Shown here in pieces: positions 2,200-11,079 of a stretch of 38,623 nucleotides of DNA. The DNA is taken from contig JACRPW010000054.1 in NCBI GenBank assembly GCA_016223005.1, positions 1 to 38,623 of the forward strand, given 5' to 3'. The position numbers and the translations under genes were made by a program. Under the pieces are notes generated by a model. The model was not told where the DNA came from. It was given only the letters and a program-made list of their open reading frames with translations, and searched no databases. Each line of letters starts with the position of its first letter. Within the stretch, counting starts at the first letter, position 1. This DNA comes from Deltaproteobacteria bacterium (GTDB lineage: Bacteria > Desulfobacterota > GWC2-55-46 > UBA9637 > GWC2-42-11).

Positions 2200-4035
2200 A
2201 TGAACCTTTTGATGAAGACCGCCTTAAGTTTGTTTGTTATCCTATCTTTTGTATTAGTAAGTCAGGTATTTAAGTCCTCTGTCCTGGGTCGTCAGTCCGG
2301 AGTATTTGCAGAAGAGACAAAACAGGATGGGGCTTCTCAAATACCTGCTATAGAAACACATGCAAAGAAAGACAAGGCAAAACCTTCATATCCACCTGCT
2401 CCAAAACTGCAGGAGTCTGACTATCCTAAAGTCAAGGGTTTTAATTCCAGAATTACTGTATGGCTTGTTGCACAACTCCACCTCTGGTTTGCGGCATTCG
2501 TGCTTGCAGTCCCTATATTCGTCTTAATCATTGAACTTATAGGTGTTGCAACAAAGGATGAAAGATACGACAAGATGGCTTATGAGTTTATAAAAATCAG
2601 CCTTACAGCATACTCAATTACCGCTGTGTTCGGCGGCATTCTCACAATTTCCATGATAGTATTCTATCCTGACTTTTTCAAATATATGGCAGGTCTCTTT
2701 GGTTCAACAATGCTTGCCTACGCATTCCTGTTCTTAGCCGAGAGCGCCTCATGGTATATATACTACTACGGCTGGAACTGGCTCAAATATGGGTTTAAGA
2801 AATGGGTGCATCTGACAATTGGTCTTATACTGAATGCGGTTGGAACAGTCCTTATGTTCCTTGCAAATTCATGGGTTACATTCATGATGAGCCCGGGCGG
2901 GGTTGATGCAGCAGGCTCATTTCAGGGGAATACATGGGCAGTTGTCCATAACTTCCTCTGGAACCCGGTAAACCTCCACAGGTTTGTTGCCAATGTTGCA
3001 TACGGCGGCTCTGTAGTGGGCGCTTATGCGGCATACAGATTCTTAAGCGCCCAGACAAAAGAGGAAAAGGCACATTATGACTGGATGGGATATACTGCGA
3101 ACTTTATAGCCATTGCAGCCCTCCTGCCTCTTCCATTTGCAGGTTACTGGCTTACAGCAGAGATATACGCATACAGCCAGCAGATGGGCATTACGCTTAT
3201 GGGCGGTGTATTTGCATGGCTCTTTATCATACAGGCAGTCCTTATCGGAGCCCTTTTCCTTTCAGCAAATTATTACCTCTGGTGCGGTATGGGCAGGAGT
3301 GAAGGCGCTATCAGGTATAATAAATACATCAAATACATAGCATTTGTAATTATTGCATGCTTCCTTGTCTGGTTCACGCCTCACACCCTTGTTATGACAC
3401 AGGGTGAATTGAAGGCGCTTGGAGGTCCGTATCATAAGTATCTTGGTCCCATCGGCATTATGCCTGCAAAAAATACTGCAGTAAATATTATGATACTCTT
3501 TACATTCTTAAGTTTCCTCCTTTACAGAAGGGCAAATAAGGTTGCAACTGTTTCATGGGCAAAATATGGGAATATTGCGCAGGTAGCAATATTTGCAGGC
3601 GCAATAATCAACATAGCGCTTCTTGGTGTGTATCACGGTTATTTTACAGATACGGCAACAAAGGTAGGTTCATCTATTCCACAGGTAGCCTCAACACTCT
3701 CTGTTATCATACTTTGCATTATTATAGATGTCCTTATGTTTAAAGGTGCAAAGGATGTTGCACCCTTGAAGTGGGGCAATGTCCCTGACAGGAGCCAGTA
3801 TGCCTTGTTTCTCTTGGCAGTTTCTTTTACATGGCTTATGGGACTCATGGGATATATTAGAAGCGGCATAAGACAGCACTGGCATATCTATACTATTATG
3901 AGGGATAATTCTCCAAATGCATTTACCCTGACAATAGGCTATGCCGCCCAGATAGTTTCTATAGGCGTTATCATATTTATGGCAATAGTTATATTTATAT
4001 TCTGGCTTAACCAAATTTCCAGCAAAAAGGCATAA
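2200..4035 (+). CDS. Cytochrome bd-like oxidase subunit I (CydA superfamily, non-quinol type)
   Basis: This 611-residue polytopic membrane protein opens with a hydrophobic segment (5-22) and a Pro/Lys-rich linker to about residue 80, then roughly 13-14 helices. The early helices align by eye with E. coli CydA. QLHLWFA carries His94 (CydA His19, high-spin heme b595). FLAES carries Glu181 (Glu107), followed by a GW matching FFFGW. Then come LANSWVTFMMSPGG (LVANGWMQNPIGAD) and LWNPVNLHRFV (VLNPVAQVKFV). Departures are clear: Ala173 stands where CydA has Glu99; Ala264 replaces His186, the heme b558 ligand, with a His four residues earlier; and the Q-loop and its GRQPW motif are absent. Bd-superfamily members lacking the quinol site (the OR-C/OR-N groups) are known, the latter mainly from Nitrospirota. 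With four cytochrome genes downstream, the electron donor is probably a cytochrome c. No CydB follows. A ribosome-binding site AAGGAG precedes the ATG. Confidence 0.8.
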   Translation: MNLLMKTALSLFVILSFVLVSQVFKSSVLGRQSGVFAEETKQDGASQIPAIETHAKKDKAKPSYPPAPKLQESDYPKVKGFNSRITVWLVAQLHLWFAAFVLAVPIFVLIIELIGVATKDERYDKMAYEFIKISLTAYSITAVFGGILTISMIVFYPDFFKYMAGLFGSTMLAYAFLFLAESASWYIYYYGWNWLKYGFKKWVHLTIGLILNAVGTVLMFLANSWVTFMMSPGGVDAAGSFQGNTWAVVHNFLWNPVNLHRFVANVAYGGSVVGAYAAYRFLSAQTKEEKAHYDWMGYTANFIAIAALLPLPFAGYWLTAEIYAYSQQMGITLMGGVFAWLFIIQAVLIGALFLSANYYLWCGMGRSEGAIRYNKYIKYIAFVIIACFLVWFTPHTLVMTQGELKALGGPYHKYLGPIGIMPAKNTAVNIMILFTFLSFLLYRRANKVATVSWAKYGNIAQVAIFAGAIINIALLGVYHGYFTDTATKVGSSIPQVASTLSVIILCIIIDVLMFKGAKDVAPLKWGNVPDRSQYALFLLAVSFTWLMGLMGYIRSGIRQHWHIYTIMRDNSPNAFTLTIGYAAQIVSIGVIIFMAIVIFIFWLNQISSKKA

Positions 4036-4084: not shown

Positions 4085-4915
4085 ATGAAAACATTTTTGA
4101 AGGTTGTTGCGTTCAGCGTTATTGTCATACTTTTTTATGCATTCTATGCCAGTTATGGCATACCTCAGGTAAAACCAGAGGCACCGCCTGTGGAAGAGAA
4201 ACTGGATTTAGGCAGTATGACAATGGACCAGTTTACAGCACTTGGTGAAAAGATATTTAACGGCAAAGGGACATGCACACTTTGTCACAACCCTGTTGGT
4301 GGTCGGGCACCTCTTCTTGATTCAGTTACATCAGTTGCAAATGACAGATTAAAAGATGCCAGATATAAAGGCAAGGCAAAGACATCTGAGGAATATGTAA
4401 GGGAGTCAATGATAGAGCCGTCTGCATTTGTTGTTGTCGGTTTTGGTGTAAAGGGGACAAGTGATACACAGAGCCCAATGCCAAATGTTGCAACAGGCGC
4501 TATAGGCTTAAATGAGGCAGAGGTAAGTGCAGTAATAGCCTATTTACAGAAGAAGGCAGGGCAGGAGGTTACTGTTAAGATACCTACAGGTACACCTGCT
4601 GCTGAAGAAAAGGCAGGGGAGGCAGCATCTGTATCACCATCAAAAACACCTAATGAACTGGTTGTAAAACTTGGCTGCGGGGCGTGCCATAAGATTGCAG
4701 GACAGCCCGGTGTTCTGGGTCCTGATTTAACAAAGATAGGCGCAGCAAGGAAAGAAGATTATTTAAGAAGGTCTGTCCTTGATCCTGATGCAGATATTGC
4801 AAAGCAGTGTCCAACAGGACCATGTTTACCCGGTGTGATGCCAAAGGACTACAAAGACAAGATGACAGCAGGGGAATTTGAGATGTTAGTTAAATTTATG
4901 GTGAATTCAAAGTAG
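4085..4915 (+). CDS. Membrane-anchored diheme cytochrome c
   Basis: The 276-residue protein has one N-terminal hydrophobic anchor (about 5-25, no cleavage motif needed) and two class-I-like cytochrome c domains facing the periplasm. Heme motifs are CTLCH (64-68) and CGACH (198-202), separated by an Ala/Glu/Pro-rich linker at about 165-190. Candidate axial methionines are Met132 in SPMPN for the first heme and the Met of PGVMPKD for the second. A CPTGPC pair just ahead of the second Met may form a disulfide. It lies 49 bases after the bd-like gene on the same strand and is the natural direct electron donor to it. The ATG has the upstream signal AAGAAGGGG. Confidence 0.85.
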   Translation: MKTFLKVVAFSVIVILFYAFYASYGIPQVKPEAPPVEEKLDLGSMTMDQFTALGEKIFNGKGTCTLCHNPVGGRAPLLDSVTSVANDRLKDARYKGKAKTSEEYVRESMIEPSAFVVVGFGVKGTSDTQSPMPNVATGAIGLNEAEVSAVIAYLQKKAGQEVTVKIPTGTPAAEEKAGEAASVSPSKTPNELVVKLGCGACHKIAGQPGVLGPDLTKIGAARKEDYLRRSVLDPDADIAKQCPTGPCLPGVMPKDYKDKMTAGEFEMLVKFMVNSK

Positions 4916-4918
4916 AAA

Positions 4919-5043
4919 GTTCACGCTGAAAAACGCCCATCTGCGTTGTCAGGACTGCGGATTTTCATCCTCACATACCTAAAAGTATGCTGCGGTGCAA
5001 ATCCTTGTCCTTCCTAGCATCTGGGCAATTTTTGAGCGTGAAC
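4919..5043. repeat. 125-bp imperfect palindromic element
   Basis: The gap between two cytochrome genes is filled by a near-complete inverted repeat. GTTCACGCT (4919-4927) pairs perfectly with AGCGTGAAC (5035-5043). The pairing then continues with mismatches along most of both arms to CATAC (4974-4978) and GTATG (4985-4989) around a CTAAAA-type loop. The RNA would form one long hairpin. It starts three bases after the stop codon and ends 23 bases before the next start, so it looks like an inserted dispersed element. Its centre resembles the repeat at 187-335. Confidence 0.75.
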
Positions 5044-5066
5044 ATCGTCAAATATAAGGAGTAAAC

Positions 5067-5834
5067 ATGAAAATACCAAGACTGCTTCTGGCGGTAATAA
5101 CAATAGGAATCTTTTATGGTTTCTTTAAGATATTCTTCGGTGTGATATTAAAACAGCCGATCCCCTCCAGCCTTCTTACAATGTATATGTTCTTCACTGT
5201 AATTGGTGTTCTTATGGTTCTTTCGTTTACAGTAGAAGGTGCCAAAGAACTTATGTCGCCAATCAAAAACCTGCTTGAAAACCCCCAAAAGAAACTCATG
5301 CGGAATATAGTGTTTGGAATTATTACAGCCTTTGCAGGCTTCATAACATACCAGCAGGTTAAGCCGAGTTTTGAGGCGCCTCTGGAATTAAGGACAATCC
5401 ACCCTGCACCGCCGTCAACTGTTTCTGCATATAATAAGAGTTATAATCTTTTAACCCTTGAAAACCCGTTCAGAAAATATAAGAAGGAAGACCCTGCAAA
5501 ATTCAAGCAACTTGTATATGAAGGCGGAGAGGTATATTTCAAAAACTGTTTCTACTGCCATGGAGATAAACTTGACGGGAAGGGGCATTATGCTCATGGG
5601 TTCAATCCGCTCCCTGCAAATTTTATGGACGTGGGAACGATTGCACAATTGCAGGAATCGTATCTCTTCTGGAGGATTGCAACAGGTGGTCCCGGACTTC
5701 CAAAAGAGGCAGCGCCGTGGCTGTCATCAATGCCTGTATGGCAGAACTTTTTAACAGAAGAGGAGATATGGAAGGTAATACTCTTCCTTTATGACTATAC
5801 GGGTTATGTGCCGAGGAGTTGGGAAAAACATTAA
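5067..5834 (+). CDS. Membrane-bound monoheme cytochrome c (three N-terminal spans)
   Basis: The 255-residue protein has three predicted membrane helices (about 5-27, 34-56 and 78-97) followed by a periplasmic cytochrome c domain with a single CFYCH heme motif at 161-165. The domain has a typical C-terminal helix (EEEIWKVILFLYDY), and SSMPVW supplies a likely axial Met. Multi-span anchoring of a cytochrome c is less common than a single anchor and suggests the N-terminal helices pack against other subunits such as the bd-like or b-type protein. Start: ATG with TAAGGAG eight bases upstream. It is part of the plus-strand cluster from about 1.96 kb to 7.5 kb. Confidence 0.82.
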   Translation: MKIPRLLLAVITIGIFYGFFKIFFGVILKQPIPSSLLTMYMFFTVIGVLMVLSFTVEGAKELMSPIKNLLENPQKKLMRNIVFGIITAFAGFITYQQVKPSFEAPLELRTIHPAPPSTVSAYNKSYNLLTLENPFRKYKKEDPAKFKQLVYEGGEVYFKNCFYCHGDKLDGKGHYAHGFNPLPANFMDVGTIAQLQESYLFWRIATGGPGLPKEAAPWLSSMPVWQNFLTEEEIWKVILFLYDYTGYVPRSWEKH

Positions 5835-5845
5835 AGACAGGTGAT

Positions 5846-5916
5846 AGGTGATAGGCAATGGGCGATAGGTAATGCCCTAAAACCCCTTATAGCCTATAGC
5901 CCATTGCCTAGTGCCT
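5846..5916. repeat. Intergenic hairpin repeat
   Basis: AGGCAATGGGC (5853-5863) is perfectly complementary to GCCCATTGCCT (5899-5909), and the match extends outward and inward (GGTGAT.., GATAGG/CCTATA) with few mismatches. The left arm also holds the short tandem GTGATAG GTGATAG. It fills the gap between two cytochrome genes. No T tract follows, so it is not a standard terminator. Confidence 0.65.
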
Positions 5917-5943
5917 AATTAAGATTAGAGAGGATTATAGAAA

Positions 5944-7455
5944 ATGAAAGTTAAAAATATTGCACTACTTATACTGTTTGCCCTTTTCATTTCCTCTGCC
6001 GCCTTTGCAGCAGGTGATAAAGAAAATGGCAAGAAGATATATGAAAAAAAGTGCATCTGGTGCCACGGCAAAGATGGTGCAGGCAATGGTCCTGCTGCTG
6101 CCTTCCTAAATCCGCCTCCAAGGGATTTTACATCAGGTCTTTATAAATTCAAAACAACACCGTTTGATGAAATCCTTCCAAATGATGAGGATATATTCAG
6201 GATGATTGCAGACGGTATGCCTGACAGTTCAATGCCGGGATGGAAGGATATACTCAAAGAAAAAGAGATGTGGGACATCATTGCATACATAAAAACATTT
6301 GCAGGACTTGAAGGGAAACCAGCAAAGCAGATAGATTTTTCAAAGCAGGTTAAATCCTCAAAGGAAAGTATTGAAAGGGGCAAGAAATTATTTATAGACA
6401 GATGTGCAGAGTGTCATGGCGAAGAGGGCAGGGGAGATGGAGGGAAGAAATTAAAGGATGACTGGGATGCAAGGACATGGCCCAGAAACCTTACAAAGCC
6501 GTGGTCATTCAGGGTTAATAATGACCCCAAAAATATATTTGCCCGAATTACAACAGGTATACCCGGGACACAGATGCCGTCATTTGCAGACCCTGCAAGT
6601 AAGAAAAAACTTTCAGATGAAGAGAGATGGGATGTAGCAAACTATGCTGCCTCTCTGGCAGATGCTTCAAAGACAATAAAAGAAGGCAGTACAGTTGTTA
6701 AGGCAAAAAGGGTATCAGGCAGTTTGCCTGAAAAGGCTGATGACCCAAAATGGCAGGAGGCAGAGCCAACTAACTTTTATCTTATCTCACAGATTATAGG
6801 TAAGGAGAGGTTTTTTATGCCTTCTAATAACAGTATAAGGACAAGGGCATTTTATAATGATAAAGAGATCGCAATACTTCTTGAATGGGATGACAGGACA
6901 AAAAGTATTCCTGGTGATGAAAAGGCATTAGAGGTATCTCTTGATGGACAGGTATTTGAAGACAGTGTTTCTGTCCAGTTCCCTGTTACAATACCAGAGG
7001 AGATGGAAAAGCCTTATTTTGGTATGGGTGATGCTTCAAAGCCTGTGAATATCTGGCAGTGGAAGAGTGAGAAAAAAGATGCGCAGCAGACTGTAAGGCT
7101 GTTAAATGCCACTGGTTTTGAAAAGATAGAGGCAAGGGATGCAGGCAAGGCTGGTTTAAAGGCACAAGGTGTATATAATAAAGGCACATGGCGTGTTGTG
7201 ATGAAGAGGTCTCTTGCAGGAGGAGAAAAGGGTAGGGACATACAGTTTGTAGAAGGTAAATTTATCCCGCTTGCATTTGCTGTATGGGACGGCACAAATG
7301 GAGAAAAGGGTTCAAAACACACAATGACAACATGGTACTGGTTATTCCTTAAGCCAGAGGCAGGTATATATGTGTATGCAATGCCTGCGTTTGTTGCTTT
7401 TTTTGTGTTGGGTATATGCATACTACTTGCCAGAAGCAGCCGTAGAAAAGGGTAA
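5944..7455 (+). CDS. Diheme cytochrome c fused to an ethylbenzene-dehydrogenase-gamma-like heme b domain
   Basis: A 503-residue exported protein. Residues 1-22 are a clear signal peptide ending AFAA. Two cytochrome c domains follow, with CIWCH (37-41) and CAECH (154-158). Residues from about 235 to 470 then match the pattern of the ethylbenzene dehydrogenase/DMSO-reductase-family gamma subunit (EB_dh, also found in NxrC and ClrC relatives): LLEWDDRT, SVQFPV, PYFGMGD, NIWQWK, GTWRVV, LAFAVWDG and WYWLFL. In EbdC the heme b is held by Met and Lys; the Met in FGMGD is a candidate here. A C-terminal helix (about 475-497) followed by RSSRRKG anchors it in the inner membrane. It could pass electrons between a b heme and the small cytochromes. 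No molybdopterin partner subunit lies nearby, which is unusual for the EB_dh family. Confidence 0.85.
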   Translation: MKVKNIALLILFALFISSAAFAAGDKENGKKIYEKKCIWCHGKDGAGNGPAAAFLNPPPRDFTSGLYKFKTTPFDEILPNDEDIFRMIADGMPDSSMPGWKDILKEKEMWDIIAYIKTFAGLEGKPAKQIDFSKQVKSSKESIERGKKLFIDRCAECHGEEGRGDGGKKLKDDWDARTWPRNLTKPWSFRVNNDPKNIFARITTGIPGTQMPSFADPASKKKLSDEERWDVANYAASLADASKTIKEGSTVVKAKRVSGSLPEKADDPKWQEAEPTNFYLISQIIGKERFFMPSNNSIRTRAFYNDKEIAILLEWDDRTKSIPGDEKALEVSLDGQVFEDSVSVQFPVTIPEEMEKPYFGMGDASKPVNIWQWKSEKKDAQQTVRLLNATGFEKIEARDAGKAGLKAQGVYNKGTWRVVMKRSLAGGEKGRDIQFVEGKFIPLAFAVWDGTNGEKGSKHTMTTWYWLFLKPEAGIYVYAMPAFVAFFVLGICILLARSSRRKG

Positions 7456-7461
7456 AAATCT

Positions 7462-7518
7462 ATGAGTGACCCCAAAAAATACCTTGACCTCAAATTTATA
7501 AAAATAGTATCATTATAG
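7462..7518 (+). CDS. Possible 18-residue leader or truncated gene start
   Basis: Six bases after the stop of the c/EB_dh fusion, an ATG opens a short frame MSDPKKYLDLKFIKIVSL and then a stop. The sequence has the feel of a real N-terminus, and a hairpin repeat begins eight bases further on. It may be the surviving start of a gene cut by that repeat, or chance. The upstream AGGG is only a weak ribosome site. Confidence 0.2.
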   Translation: MSDPKKYLDLKFIKIVSL

Positions 7519-7525
7519 ATAATCT

Positions 7526-7570
7526 GAGACCTTTGAAAAATGACGAATTTGCGAGTTTTTCAAAGGTCTC
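7526..7570. repeat. Perfect 15-bp stem hairpin repeat
   Basis: GAGACCTTTGAAAAA (7526-7540) and TTTTTCAAAGGTCTC (7556-7570) are exact reverse complements around a 15-base loop. It sits between the c/EB_dh gene and the TPR gene. There is no downstream T run on the plus strand, so it is more likely a mobile hairpin repeat or mRNA-stability element than a terminator. Confidence 0.75.
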
Positions 7571-7599
7571 AATATGTAATTTCAGGGGGGAATTTAAAT

Positions 7600-8070
7600 A
7601 TGAAAAACATAAGCAGACTGATATTAGTATTTATAGTAACATTTGTATTTACAGATATTGCATATTCTGGGGATAAAAGGGTAGCAAGTCTTTCAAGGGA
7701 AGATGCACATAAAAAGGCAATCACACATCAGACAAGAGGCAATGCCTTTGAAGATGAAGGTAAATTCAATGATGCAATAACAGAATATAAAGAGTCTTTA
7801 AAATATAGCCCTGATGATGTTAATACACTTTTTAACCTTGGTGTGGTCTACTTAAAGGCAAATAAGGCTAATGAGGCTGTAACAGCATTTGAAAGGATTG
7901 TCAAACTTGCTCCAAAAGATACAGAGGCATACAATCTTTTAGGTATTGCTTACAAGGGAAGCGGTAATGAAATAGGTGCCAAAAAGGCATGGGAAAAATC
8001 CCTTGCAATAGACCCGAATCAGGCACAGGTGAAAAAGATGATGCAGGATAGTGTGCAGAGCCAGCAGTAA
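7600..8070 (+). CDS. Periplasmic TPR-repeat protein
   Basis: A 156-residue protein with a signal peptide (about 1-24, ending IAYSG) and three tetratricopeptide repeats. These read AITHQTRGNAFEDEG.., VNTLFNLGVVYLKAN.. and TEAYNLLGIAYKGSG.., each with the A/G-Y-L-P spacing of the family. TPR proteins act as scaffolds or assembly factors; here it may help assemble or hold the cytochrome complex, which is inference from position. I choose the ATG at 7600 because a strong AGGGGGG site precedes it and the product has a signal peptide. The longer frame from 7540 would begin inside the hairpin repeat. A strong terminator follows the gene. Confidence 0.82.
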   Translation: MKNISRLILVFIVTFVFTDIAYSGDKRVASLSREDAHKKAITHQTRGNAFEDEGKFNDAITEYKESLKYSPDDVNTLFNLGVVYLKANKANEAVTAFERIVKLAPKDTEAYNLLGIAYKGSGNEIGAKKAWEKSLAIDPNQAQVKKMMQDSVQSQQ

Positions 8071-8101
8071 AATCAAAGTGTGTTTTAGTTAAATAAATTA
8101 T

Positions 8102-8137
8102 CCCCATAGCCGGCCAACTGGTTATGGGTATTTTTTT
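8102..8137 (+). terminator. Rho-independent terminator after the TPR gene
   Basis: CCCATAGCC (8103-8111) pairs with GGTTATGGG (8120-8128), one G-U pair, around an 8-base loop, followed by TATTTTTTT. This closes the transcript running from about 1.96 kb to 8.07 kb and separates it from the cytochrome b gene. Confidence 0.8.
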
Positions 8138-8168
8138 GTAACATACAAAGCGTCATAACTGTGCATAC

Positions 8169-8197
8169 CTAAGTTGCTCATCAGCGTTGTGTATAAT
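8169..8197 (+). promoter_or_regulatory. Candidate promoter of the cytochrome b gene
   Basis: A perfect TATAAT lies at 8192-8197, 19 bases before the ATG at 8216, downstream of the terminator. No good -35 hexamer sits at the usual distance (CTAAGT at 8169-8174), so strength or an activator requirement is open. The region 8151-8170 repeats the left end of the element at 187. Confidence 0.3.
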
Positions 8198-8215
8198 AAA
8201 AAAGAAGGATAGATT

Positions 8216-9391
8216 ATGTTAGACGACTTAAAACCAGAAAAAGTCAACTGGCGGCATTATTTTGGCGGTCTGTCATTTATAATGCTCATGCTCCAGTTGA
8301 TAAGCGGCATCTTTCTTATATTCTTTTATGAGCCATCCCTAAGTGATGCCTATAAAACAATTCAAAAAATATCAAATAAGGTTTATGGCGGAGGGCTGCT
8401 CCGCAATCTCCACAGATGGATACCTGCTCTCTTATTTATTGTAGTAACAGTACATACAACAAGATGTTTTATCAGAAAGGACTTTTCAAACCAGCAGAAG
8501 CGGGTTTTATGGATGACGGGCGTTTTACTCCTACTCCCCATTTTTCTTCTTGTAGCCACAGGACTGATACTGCCGTGGGAATGGAAAGGCTATTGGTTTA
8601 TGGAGATGGTTACGAACTACTTTGCAACTGTTCCAGTAATAGGCAGTGTGTTGAAAACATTTTTTATGGATACATACACCATCCCAAGATACTATGCGCT
8701 GCATATACTTGTATTTCCGCTGATTACATTTATCCTTGTTGATTATCATCTGCTTGCCAAGTTAAGAAAAAGAGGGATATTCAAATATCTTTTGAGACAT
8801 ATAATAATTGTCATTCCATTCCTGCTCATTTTGTTTTATCTTGCCATAACAATACAGATTCCCTCAAATGACCCAATAGATGTGCCGCTGCCGCTGGAGG
8901 GGGCTGGCATTATTGCGCCCGAATGGTATTTTCTGATAATGCTCCTCCCATTTATGTATATCAAAAGCAGTTTCTGGCTCTTTATCATTGCCATATTTGC
9001 GCCGCTCGTTGTGCTTTTTGCTATTGCATTTATGCCGTATTATTTAAAGGGTAAGGAAGAAGATAACGAAGAAGAATCAAATAAAGAGAAGCACCCTCAT
9101 CACAGGGCAACAGGTATAAGACTTTTGTGGCATAAAATTATGAGGGATAGTTATTGGAAAAAGATTGCAGCAGGTGTTGTTGTTACTGTGATAACATTTA
9201 TAGTTATTGGTTTGCTTTATCTTGGGAGTTGGAATTCCCCGACACTTGGCTGTAATTCCTGCCATAATATATCAAAGGGTCAGAGAATCGGCATACCTCC
9301 TGATTTTTTTAAAGACCGCTCAAAACTCCCGCTGTTAGATGATAATGAATGGATGCTCAGGCATTGGTATTATCCAAACGAGGTTTGGTAG
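8216..9391 (+). CDS. b6-type cytochrome b with C-terminal c-heme motif
   Basis: A 391-residue membrane protein combining the cytochrome b6 core and the subunit-IV part. Heme ligands are His66 and His80 (14 apart) and His163 and His178 (15 apart, the b6 spacing rather than the bc1 spacing). The quinol-oxidation motif PEWY is at 235-238. A charged loop (278-295) leads to a further helix (317-337) and a CNSCH motif (346-350), so a c-type heme is covalently attached near the C-terminus. The Cys that binds heme ci in b6f appears replaced by Tyr15. The protein should oxidise quinol and feed the c-type cytochromes, but no Rieske iron-sulfur gene is visible in the window. Ribosome site AAGGA precedes the ATG. 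Confidence 0.85.
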   Translation: MLDDLKPEKVNWRHYFGGLSFIMLMLQLISGIFLIFFYEPSLSDAYKTIQKISNKVYGGGLLRNLHRWIPALLFIVVTVHTTRCFIRKDFSNQQKRVLWMTGVLLLLPIFLLVATGLILPWEWKGYWFMEMVTNYFATVPVIGSVLKTFFMDTYTIPRYYALHILVFPLITFILVDYHLLAKLRKRGIFKYLLRHIIIVIPFLLILFYLAITIQIPSNDPIDVPLPLEGAGIIAPEWYFLIMLLPFMYIKSSFWLFIIAIFAPLVVLFAIAFMPYYLKGKEEDNEEESNKEKHPHHRATGIRLLWHKIMRDSYWKKIAAGVVVTVITFIVIGLLYLGSWNSPTLGCNSCHNISKGQRIGIPPDFFKDRSKLPLLDDNEWMLRHWYYPNEVW

Positions 9392-9392
9392 T

Positions 9393-10007
9393 ATGGCAAA
9401 ACATAAGGTTATATTTGCAGCAGCGTTTGCTGTCATTGTTTTTGTTGGCTCGTATCTGTTTTTTTTAGAAGATGATAAGAAGGGTGTAGTTGTTTTTGTT
9501 GAGGCATATATAAATGCAGTAAAAAATGAGGATTTTAAAACTGCTTATAATCTGAATGCTGCATCTCAAAAGAGGAGTTTATTTGTGCTTAAAGGCACTG
9601 ACTCAAATAAAGATGAGATACTAAAACAGATATACGAGGAGCAGAAGACAATATTTGTTTCTGTTCAAAACAGGTTTGTTCCCAATGCACTCTGGACAGA
9701 AAAGGCGCTTTTTATCAAAGGTATGAAATACAAGATAAATAAGGTTACAATGGGACTTGATGTTGATAACCCCACTGCATTTTATAGAAAACGGATAAAT
9801 GCTGCTGCTGACATAGAGGCTGAATATAATAACAAAGAGACTGCACCTGTTTTTGAGGGCGGCAGTATTAAAAAAACAGACATGATTGTAAAGATGGTGC
9901 ATAGTAAGAATATTGGTAAGACACTGAAATCTATGAGCGGTATTGAAGATGATAAGTGGCTTTTTAAAGGTGTTGCAATAAAATATGGTAGTATTGTATA
10001 TTGGTAA
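9393..10007 (+). CDS. Membrane-anchored protein of unknown function (cytochrome b partner)
   Basis: I do not recognise a family with confidence. The 204-residue product has one N-terminal hydrophobic helix (about 6-24) followed by a soluble part. That part starts VVVFVEAYINAVKNEDFKTAY, a pattern common in NTF2-like or DUF4878-like domains that begin with a helix such as 'A..YL.A...GDY..AY'. The ATG at 9393 lies one base after the stop codon of the cytochrome b gene, which fits translational coupling, so the two proteins probably act together. A longer in-frame extension to 9339 would overlap the cytochrome b coding end and lose the membrane anchor position. No cysteines or heme motif are seen. 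Confidence 0.7.
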   Translation: MAKHKVIFAAAFAVIVFVGSYLFFLEDDKKGVVVFVEAYINAVKNEDFKTAYNLNAASQKRSLFVLKGTDSNKDEILKQIYEEQKTIFVSVQNRFVPNALWTEKALFIKGMKYKINKVTMGLDVDNPTAFYRKRINAAADIEAEYNNKETAPVFEGGSIKKTDMIVKMVHSKNIGKTLKSMSGIEDDKWLFKGVAIKYGSIVYW

Positions 10008-10046: not shown

Positions 10047-11079
10047 ATGGGACTAAAAGATTTTTTGTTTACATCAGAATCAGTTACAGAAGGGCACCCT
10101 GACAAGGTTGCCGACCAGATTTCTGATTCAGTGCTTGATGCCTTATTAAAAGAAGACCCAAAAAGCAGGGTTGCATGCGAAACCCTTGTTACAACAGGAC
10201 TTGCGCTTATAGCAGGCGAGATAACAACAACTGCAAGGGTTGACTATCCACAGGTAGTCAGGAATACAATACGGGAGATAGGTTATACAGATGCAGGAGC
10301 AGGTTTTGATGCAGACACCTGCGCTGTCATGGTAACACTTGACAGACAGTCCCCTGATATCTCAATGGGTGTTGATGCTGGTGAGAGTAAAGAGCAGGGC
10401 GCAGGGGACCAGGGGCTTATGTTTGGTTACGCCTGCAACCACACACCTGAACTTATGCCTATGCCAATACTCTATGCCCATAAACTTACTCATCGTCTTG
10501 CAGAGACTAGAAAGAAGGGGATATTAAAATTTCTAAGACCTGACGGTAAGTCTCAGGTTACAATACAGTATGAAAATAACAGACCAAAGATGGTTGATAC
10601 AGTTGTTATCTCAACCCAGCATACACCGGATGTGGACAATAAGACGATAAGAGAGGCTGTTATAGAAGAGGTCATAAAAAAGGTCATCTCATCAGAGTTT
10701 ATTGATAAAAATACAAAATATCACATAAACCCTACAGGGAGGTTTGTTGTCGGTGGTCCACAGGGCGACTGCGGTCTGACAGGCAGAAAAATCATTGTTG
10801 ACACAGTGTGAGGTGCAGGTGGCATATGCAATAGGTGTTGCAGAGCCTGTCTCAATGATGGTTGATACATTTGGTACGGAAAAGGTTGACCCTCAAAAGA
10901 TAGTAAAGGCTGTGCGGGAAAACTTCAAAATGAAGCCGGCAGATATTATAAAGACGCTTGATTTATTAAGACCGATATACAGAAAGACCGCTGCATACGG
11001 ACACTTTGGCAGAAATGAACCTGAGTTTACATGGGAAAGGACAGATAAGGCAGAGGCATTGAAAAATAGTGTAAAATGA
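10047..11079 (+). pseudogene. metK: S-adenosylmethionine synthetase, broken by a 128-nt internal deletion
   Basis: Residues 1-253 run in frame from the ATG at 10047 with the MetK signatures TEGHPDK (His17, Asp19, Lys20) and [12 protein letters not shown], to GRKIIVDT. There the reading frame hits TGA (10809-10811). The rest continues in another frame from [16 protein letters not shown] (about 10804) to 11079. Against E. coli MetK the 43 residues between IIVDT and CEVQV are missing, including the GGGAFSGKDP and KVDRSAAY active-site segments. 253+43+90 gives 386, close to the usual 384, so a clean loss of 128 nt (43 codons, with one leftover base) explains the gene. The product as written would be inactive. 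MetK is normally essential, so this is either an assembly or strain-mixture error or a genuine decay with another copy elsewhere. A strong AGGAGGG ribosome site precedes the start; ahcY follows. Confidence 0.92.

Follow-up and report, generated by a model that had tools for sequence, protein, structure and literature searches.

Complex-III-type cytochromes b are, to our knowledge, regarded as inseparable from the Rieske protein, and a contig of a Deltaproteobacteria bacterium (JACRPW010000054.1 of assembly GCA_016223005.1; its full 38,623 nucleotides are here called the window) raises the question of where such a cytochrome b would pass its electrons when no Rieske gene lies beside it. The protein in question, which we term cytochrome b-c, is encoded at positions 8216-9391 and carries cytochrome b6, subunit IV and a C-terminal heme c tail in one chain. 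For this protein and its relatives we computed the anatomy, the conservation of residues, the linkage to Rieske genes, the deletion of a loop, the co-occurrence with the nitrous oxide (N2O) reductase L-NosZ and the recurrent linkage to a cytochrome bd-like gene. The reading that we favor, with somewhat more confidence than doubt, is that cytochrome b-c is a Rieske-free quinol-cytochrome c reductase for N2O respiration that shares periplasmic cytochromes with a bd-type oxidase. Its strongest partner, the clade III NosZ, is invisible in the window because it is encoded on another contig.

A widespread family of cytochromes b with a heme c tail

The cytochrome b-c family is real and widespread. 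A scan of a genome collection recovered 46 homologous loci (L116-L161) in metagenome-assembled genomes (MAGs). Most carry the labels Deltaproteobacteria, Nitrospinota or Nitrospirae, and a few are labeled Gammaproteobacteria or Rhodospirillaceae; the scan used two peptide patterns, and more distant members may be missed. Within the class of the source genome, cytochrome b-c is found in 15/63 genomes and the bd-like gene in 53/63.

The heme b ligands of the window protein are the histidine pairs 66/80 and 163/178, and the helix D pair is separated by 15 residues, which is the b6 spacing. This spacing, the PEWY motif (235-238) and the C-terminal CNSCH (346-350) had been described in an earlier reading of the window from its letters (the sequence-only reading) and are confirmed here. 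Across 45 aligned homologues, with identity down to 38%, residues H66, H80, H163, H178, E236, C346, C349, H350, W379, M380 and H383 are invariant, so that the C-terminal CxxCH, whose conservation had been in question, is kept throughout. E236 is the glutamate of the Qo site; the W and Y of the PEWY motif vary in some members (PEWW, PES). The heme-ci cysteine (Cys35 of b6) is missing in all 48 fused-family rows of the alignment and is present in 13 rows of split, nos-linked b6 proteins and in 23/29 rows scored as ordinary.

The pattern of the tail, CxxCH...WMxxHW, is likewise invariant in the 45 sequences. Fifteen distinct tails of split subunit IV proteins have CxxCH...W..RH in common and do not share the Met. 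Because these split tails keep the CxxCH and the distal RH and not the Met, H383 is probably a better candidate than the Met for the sixth ligand of the tail heme c. An AlphaFold2 model built on a deeper alignment (mean predicted local distance difference test score, pLDDT, of 75.7) has seven transmembrane-length helices and finds its PDB fold matches among cytochromes b, with the c tail (residues ~345-355) at a pLDDT below 50; a model built on a 13-sequence alignment was poor (mean pLDDT 58.7). By analogy with the b6f topology, the C terminus and with it the heme c of the tail would lie on the periplasmic side, directly after the last helix.

No Rieske gene accompanies cytochrome b-c

The sequence-only reading had noted the lack of a Rieske gene in the 38 kb, and a profile search of the contig indeed returned no Rieske match. 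It had also asked whether relatives carry a Rieske gene next to this cytochrome b: a motif scan found one in 0/46 family loci (flanks of at most 10 kb on each side, depending on the length of the contig), and the same scan, run as a positive control, found the motif in 25/30 loci of ordinary cytochromes b. The source genome was searched whole (1.8 Mb in 102 contigs, estimated 100% complete) and holds two Rieske domains, on contigs C94 and C76. The C76 gene has a molybdopterin oxidoreductase as its neighbor and resembles a small arsenite oxidase subunit.

The C94 gene bears on a first alternative, namely that cytochrome b-c works in a conventional Rieske/cytochrome b complex and receives a Rieske protein encoded elsewhere, for example with the C94 protein serving both cytochromes b. 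Because a Rieske gene exists elsewhere in the source genome, full-length on C94, and in most other family genomes, supply in trans could occur, as the sequence-only reading had suggested. The C94 gene is nevertheless paired with a cytochrome b of its own (346 amino acids, PPWY, p-side loop intact) and an octaheme cytochrome c, cytochrome b-c lacks the p-side loop, and a linked Rieske gene is absent from all 46 loci. Five family MAGs (G055, G063, G064, G068 and G079) further lack any Rieske match, which incompleteness could explain. We therefore consider a trans-acting Rieske protein unlikely. Separately, the octaheme protein of the C94 set (L040, 269-3374) resembles a hydrazine dehydrogenase model at 114 bits, far below the cutoff.

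The source genome encodes four PF00033 cytochromes b in all. One of them is the split b6 of a set on contig C40 (L038, 7615-11714), which comprises a monoheme c, the split b6, a subunit IV that ends in a similar CxxCH tail and two genes for Vgb-like propellers, with no Rieske gene adjoining. Sets of this type adjoin L-NosZ in relatives.

A loop beside the Rieske contact region is missing

Ordinary cytochromes b have a GGxxV-type loop between cd2 and helix D, which is kept in 28/28 sequences. Five residues of this loop are missing in 47/47 rows of the fused family and in 13/13 rows of the nos-linked split b6 proteins. The Rieske head is described as making contact with the cd1/cd2 region and with the ef loop (PMC4583038); the exact GG loop was not found named in that paper, and the link to docking rests on its position beside cd1/cd2. 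Because the loop adjoins this contact region, its deletion fits a loss of Rieske docking. A tree computed without the loop columns places the ordinary, split nos-linked and fused groups each on one side of a branch (Shimodaira-Hasegawa-like approximate likelihood ratio support 97/93/99), and its long branches call for caution against further reading. The fourth cytochrome b of the source genome, on contig C46 (L039, ~7717-8523, in a 665-amino-acid frame), also lacks the GGxxV loop.

Tentatively, and with somewhat less than even confidence, we suggest that two sister families, the fused cytochrome b-c proteins and the split b6/subunit IV-c proteins linked to nos, oxidize quinol as complex-III-type enzymes that need no Rieske protein. 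The role of the moving Rieske head would fall to a short bis-His c heme fixed where the last helix ends at the periplasm, and the two families together would be the dedicated route by which electrons enter clade III N2O respiration.

The same features could also point to a non-bifurcating b-type conduit, in which quinol would give both electrons to the b hemes and these would hand them on to the c heme without a Q cycle; the flow might even run in reverse, from cytochrome c to quinone. Such a conduit agrees with a Rieske-free reductase on the absence of the Rieske protein and differs from it in mechanism. The missing Rieske partner, the altered p-side loop, the loss of the heme-ci cysteine throughout the family rows and the relaxed PEWY of some members would all suit it. 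Against it, E236 and all the b-heme histidines are invariant, which argues that a Qo-type site has been kept, and we regard the conduit as rather unlikely.

Clade III L-NosZ is the strongest co-occurring partner

Clade III L-NosZ, and not the bd-like oxidase, is the strongest co-occurring partner of cytochrome b-c. The NosZ encoded beside cytochrome b-c in relatives matches the NCBI clade III, lactonase-type L-NosZ. Within the class, L-NosZ is found in 15/15 genomes with cytochrome b-c (partial at contig edges in two) versus 1/48 without it, and outside the class 31/34 family genomes have a strong match. In a 395-genome sample of the phylum, seven genomes have L-NosZ, nine have cytochrome b-c and seven have both. 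Fisher's exact tests of the class and of the phylum sample each give p ~1.3e-13, uncorrected for relatedness. The distribution over families is patchy and is thus not the inheritance of one clade alone.

Physical linkage is also seen. In four relatives the genes for a tetratricopeptide repeat (TPR) protein, cytochrome b-c and the membrane-anchored protein p222 open the nos cluster, with nosZ ~5-7 kb further on, and direct linkage to nosZ-cluster genes occurs in MAGs labeled Nitrospinota and Gammaproteobacteria as well. The L-NosZ gene of the source genome (contig C43; L103, 8895-11582) follows a monoheme c gene (c322), and its product has the CuA-type motif CETFCGPLHLEM and the conserved histidines. 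The L-NosZ proteins of three relatives (G005, G001 and G053) score above the NCBI cutoff for this family (NF052460).

The bd-like module is a recurring neighbor

The sequence-only reading had proposed a respiratory complex joining the bd-like, b and c cytochromes and had recommended a look at gene-order conservation. The adjacency recurs: a module of CydA-like, c, c and c/EB_dh genes adjoins cytochrome b-c in 12 loci, that is, the source genome and 11 others. Seven loci labeled Nitrospinota, Nitrospinaceae or Nitrospirae (L146, L148, L149, L154, L157, L158 and L160) have the same order of CydA-like, diheme c, anchored c, c/EB_dh, diheme c, monoheme c, cytochrome b-c, c322 and an ATP-binding cassette (ABC) transporter, and L155 differs from them only in the matching of the monoheme c. 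Because this order recurs in Nitrospinota-labeled and other loci, the bd-like, b and c genes form a recurring neighborhood. A view of the bd-like neighbor as incidental, with three class genomes in which it adjoins, was dropped because the Nitrospinota-labeled MAGs carry the same order. In one relative (L106 of G005) the bd-like module lies directly upstream of L-NosZ.

It could be argued from these 12 loci, which include Nitrospinota-labeled MAGs at ~40% identity, that cytochrome b-c is a dedicated quinol-oxidizing subunit of the bd-like oxidase, in an assembly of oxidase and complex III like TO_3, with the link to NosZ being secondary. However, the bd-like gene occurs without cytochrome b-c in 38 class genomes, many family loci have no such module nearby, and NosZ tracks cytochrome b-c far better. 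We find this alternative quite unlikely. The recurring adjacency speaks for the complex first proposed, and the 38 genomes speak against it.

A proposed path of electrons

For the Rieske-free quinol-cytochrome c reductase that we favor, (mena)quinol, the presumed donor, would be oxidized at the Qo-like site of cytochrome b-c, and the electrons would then move through the b hemes and/or the tail heme c (bound at the CxxCH and probably ligated by H383), which would take the place of the Rieske protein. Periplasmic c cytochromes would deliver them to clade III L-NosZ and, where the genes adjoin, may also deliver them to the oxygen-reductase module of bd-like, c, c and c/EB_dh proteins. The electron acceptor of cytochrome b-c, the direction of flow, bifurcation and any proton coupling are what we infer in this scheme. 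These observations suggest that lineages with cytochrome b-c may feed electrons to N2O, and perhaps to O2, without the usual partner of complex III.

Several points weigh against this reading. The protein, its cofactors and its activity are predictions from sequence. Co-occurrence may reflect co-transfer instead of function, and the Fisher tests ignore relatedness. The L-NosZ of the source genome scores 687.5 bits, 12.5 under the NF052460 cutoff of 700, its gene is on a different contig from cytochrome b-c, and a NosD match is missing from that genome. PEWY is relaxed in some family members, and a Rieske gene exists elsewhere in the source genome and in 30/34 other family genomes. The MAGs are incomplete, which limits every claim of absence.

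If the reading is true, a family that has lost the neighboring Rieske gene and the loop on the docking side, and has kept the heme and Qo residues, would be a natural test of which parts of quinol oxidation need a Rieske protein. It would also offer a candidate route for electrons into the recently recognized clade III N2O reductases, whose importance lies in their role as greenhouse-gas sinks.

Genes of the locus

In the open reading frame (ORF) listing of the window, the cytochrome and TPR genes and the bd-like gene form one run on the plus strand with short gaps (Table 1); the b, c and TPR genes that the sequence-only reading had placed in one strand run are all present there.

Table 1. Features of the window around cytochrome b-c
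Feature	Positions	Strand	Length (amino acids)	Evidence
CydA-like (OR-N / TO_1-like candidate) membrane subunit, cytochrome bd-like	2200..4035	+	611	PF01654 65.4 bits, partial
Diheme cytochrome c	4085..4915	+	276	Two CxxCH (residues 64, 198), PF00034; order after CydA-like gene conserved
Membrane-anchored monoheme cytochrome c	5067..5834	+	255	One CxxCH (residue 161), PF13442; order conserved
Diheme c / EB_dh fusion (heme-b binding, NxrC/EbdC-like), C-terminal hydrophobic helix	5944..7455	+	503	CxxCH at 37, 154; PF00034 99.4 bits; PF09459 92.1 bits
TPR protein	7540..8070	+		PF07719 72.5 bits; in the class, conserved upstream neighbor of cytochrome b-c
Cytochrome b-c, b6 + subunit IV in one chain, PEWY, C-terminal CNSCH heme c tail	8216..9391	+	391	PF00033 118.1 bits
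Heme c tail of cytochrome b-c, from C346 (CNSCH ... WMLRHWYYPNEVW); candidate sixth ligand H383, alternative M380	9251..9391	+		Motif and conservation
p222, membrane-anchored protein	9393..10007	+		ATG one base past cytochrome b stop; conserved directly downstream of cytochrome b-c

The CydA-like gene sits just outside the interval first noted (4085-9391). It is the sole PF01654 match in the source genome, the match covers only the N-terminal part, and PDB matches to bd oxidases are weak. The gene stands beside c-type cytochromes and c/EB_dh and not beside CydB, which is a feature of OR-N and TO_1 (judged by PF01654 and gene order). Two short CydA-like fragments elsewhere in the genome (G000:C93:4342-4524 and G000:C76:35013-35195; ORFs of ~90 amino acids, ~51% identity over 61 residues) are possible bd-like remnants or small subunits. 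The c/EB_dh fusion passes the PF09459 cutoff of 33.3 bits and falls below that of TIGR03477 (dimethyl sulfoxide reductase type II heme b subunit; 112.6 versus 169.85 bits).

The TPR, cytochrome b-c and p222 genes keep this order in most loci of the class. The most constant neighbor is p222, which follows cytochrome b-c in most loci, has no Pfam or NCBIfam match above cutoff and is a possible assembly factor or subunit. For the downstream ABC transporter we avoid the name NosF, as its neighbors look GldG/DUF4340-like in our own reading of the sequences. Further along the window, metK (10047-11079) looks frameshifted, with ORFs of 254 and 94 amino acids in two frames; in the relative G053 it is one ORF of 386 amino acids.

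Comparison with known systems

Cytochrome b-c shares with the cytochromes of the b6f and bc1 complexes the cytochrome b fold, the two histidine pairs, the b6 spacing of helix D, PEWY and the subunit IV part, and its best PDB sequence matches are cytochromes b6. It differs from them in having no Rieske gene alongside, in the five missing residues of the p-side loop, in the lack of the heme-ci cysteine, and in carrying b6, subunit IV and a c-heme mini-tail on a single polypeptide. In the QcrABC complex of Bacillus, QcrC joins subunit IV and a cytochrome c. The best NCBIfam match is ExtP (NF040969), a b-type cytochrome of selenite/tellurite reduction operons, at 139.8 bits; this is far below the cutoff of 290 and covers the b6 part only, without the c tail.

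For the bd-like module, the order CydA-like, c, c, c/EB_dh is the same as in the TO_1 and TO_3/TO_4 clusters of Ca. Manganitrophus, where bd-like complexes with complex III components have been published (PMC9040806), and as in the OR-N CydAA' of Nitrospinota and Nitrospirales (PMC10839748, PMC12342949). A Manganitrophus locus (L185) has a Rieske + b6 pair at the matching place in the bd-like/c layout, whereas the window has a single cytochrome b-c instead, tied to clade III NosZ.

The NosZ of the source genome and its relatives is of the same type as the lactonase-domain NosZ-like proteins of the Nitrospirota class 9FT-COMBO-42-15 (PMC11033732) and the NCBIfam L-NosZ; excerpts of that paper do not mention cytochrome b-c, and the paper may do so elsewhere. 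In clade I and II N2O reducers, electrons reach NosZ from the bc1 complex through cytochrome c, or through a NosG/C1/C2/H module (PMC11539149). The theme of a complex-III-type cytochrome b that supplies NosZ through a periplasmic cytochrome c is the same; here, however, the cytochrome b accompanies the clade III NosZ and has no linked Rieske subunit.

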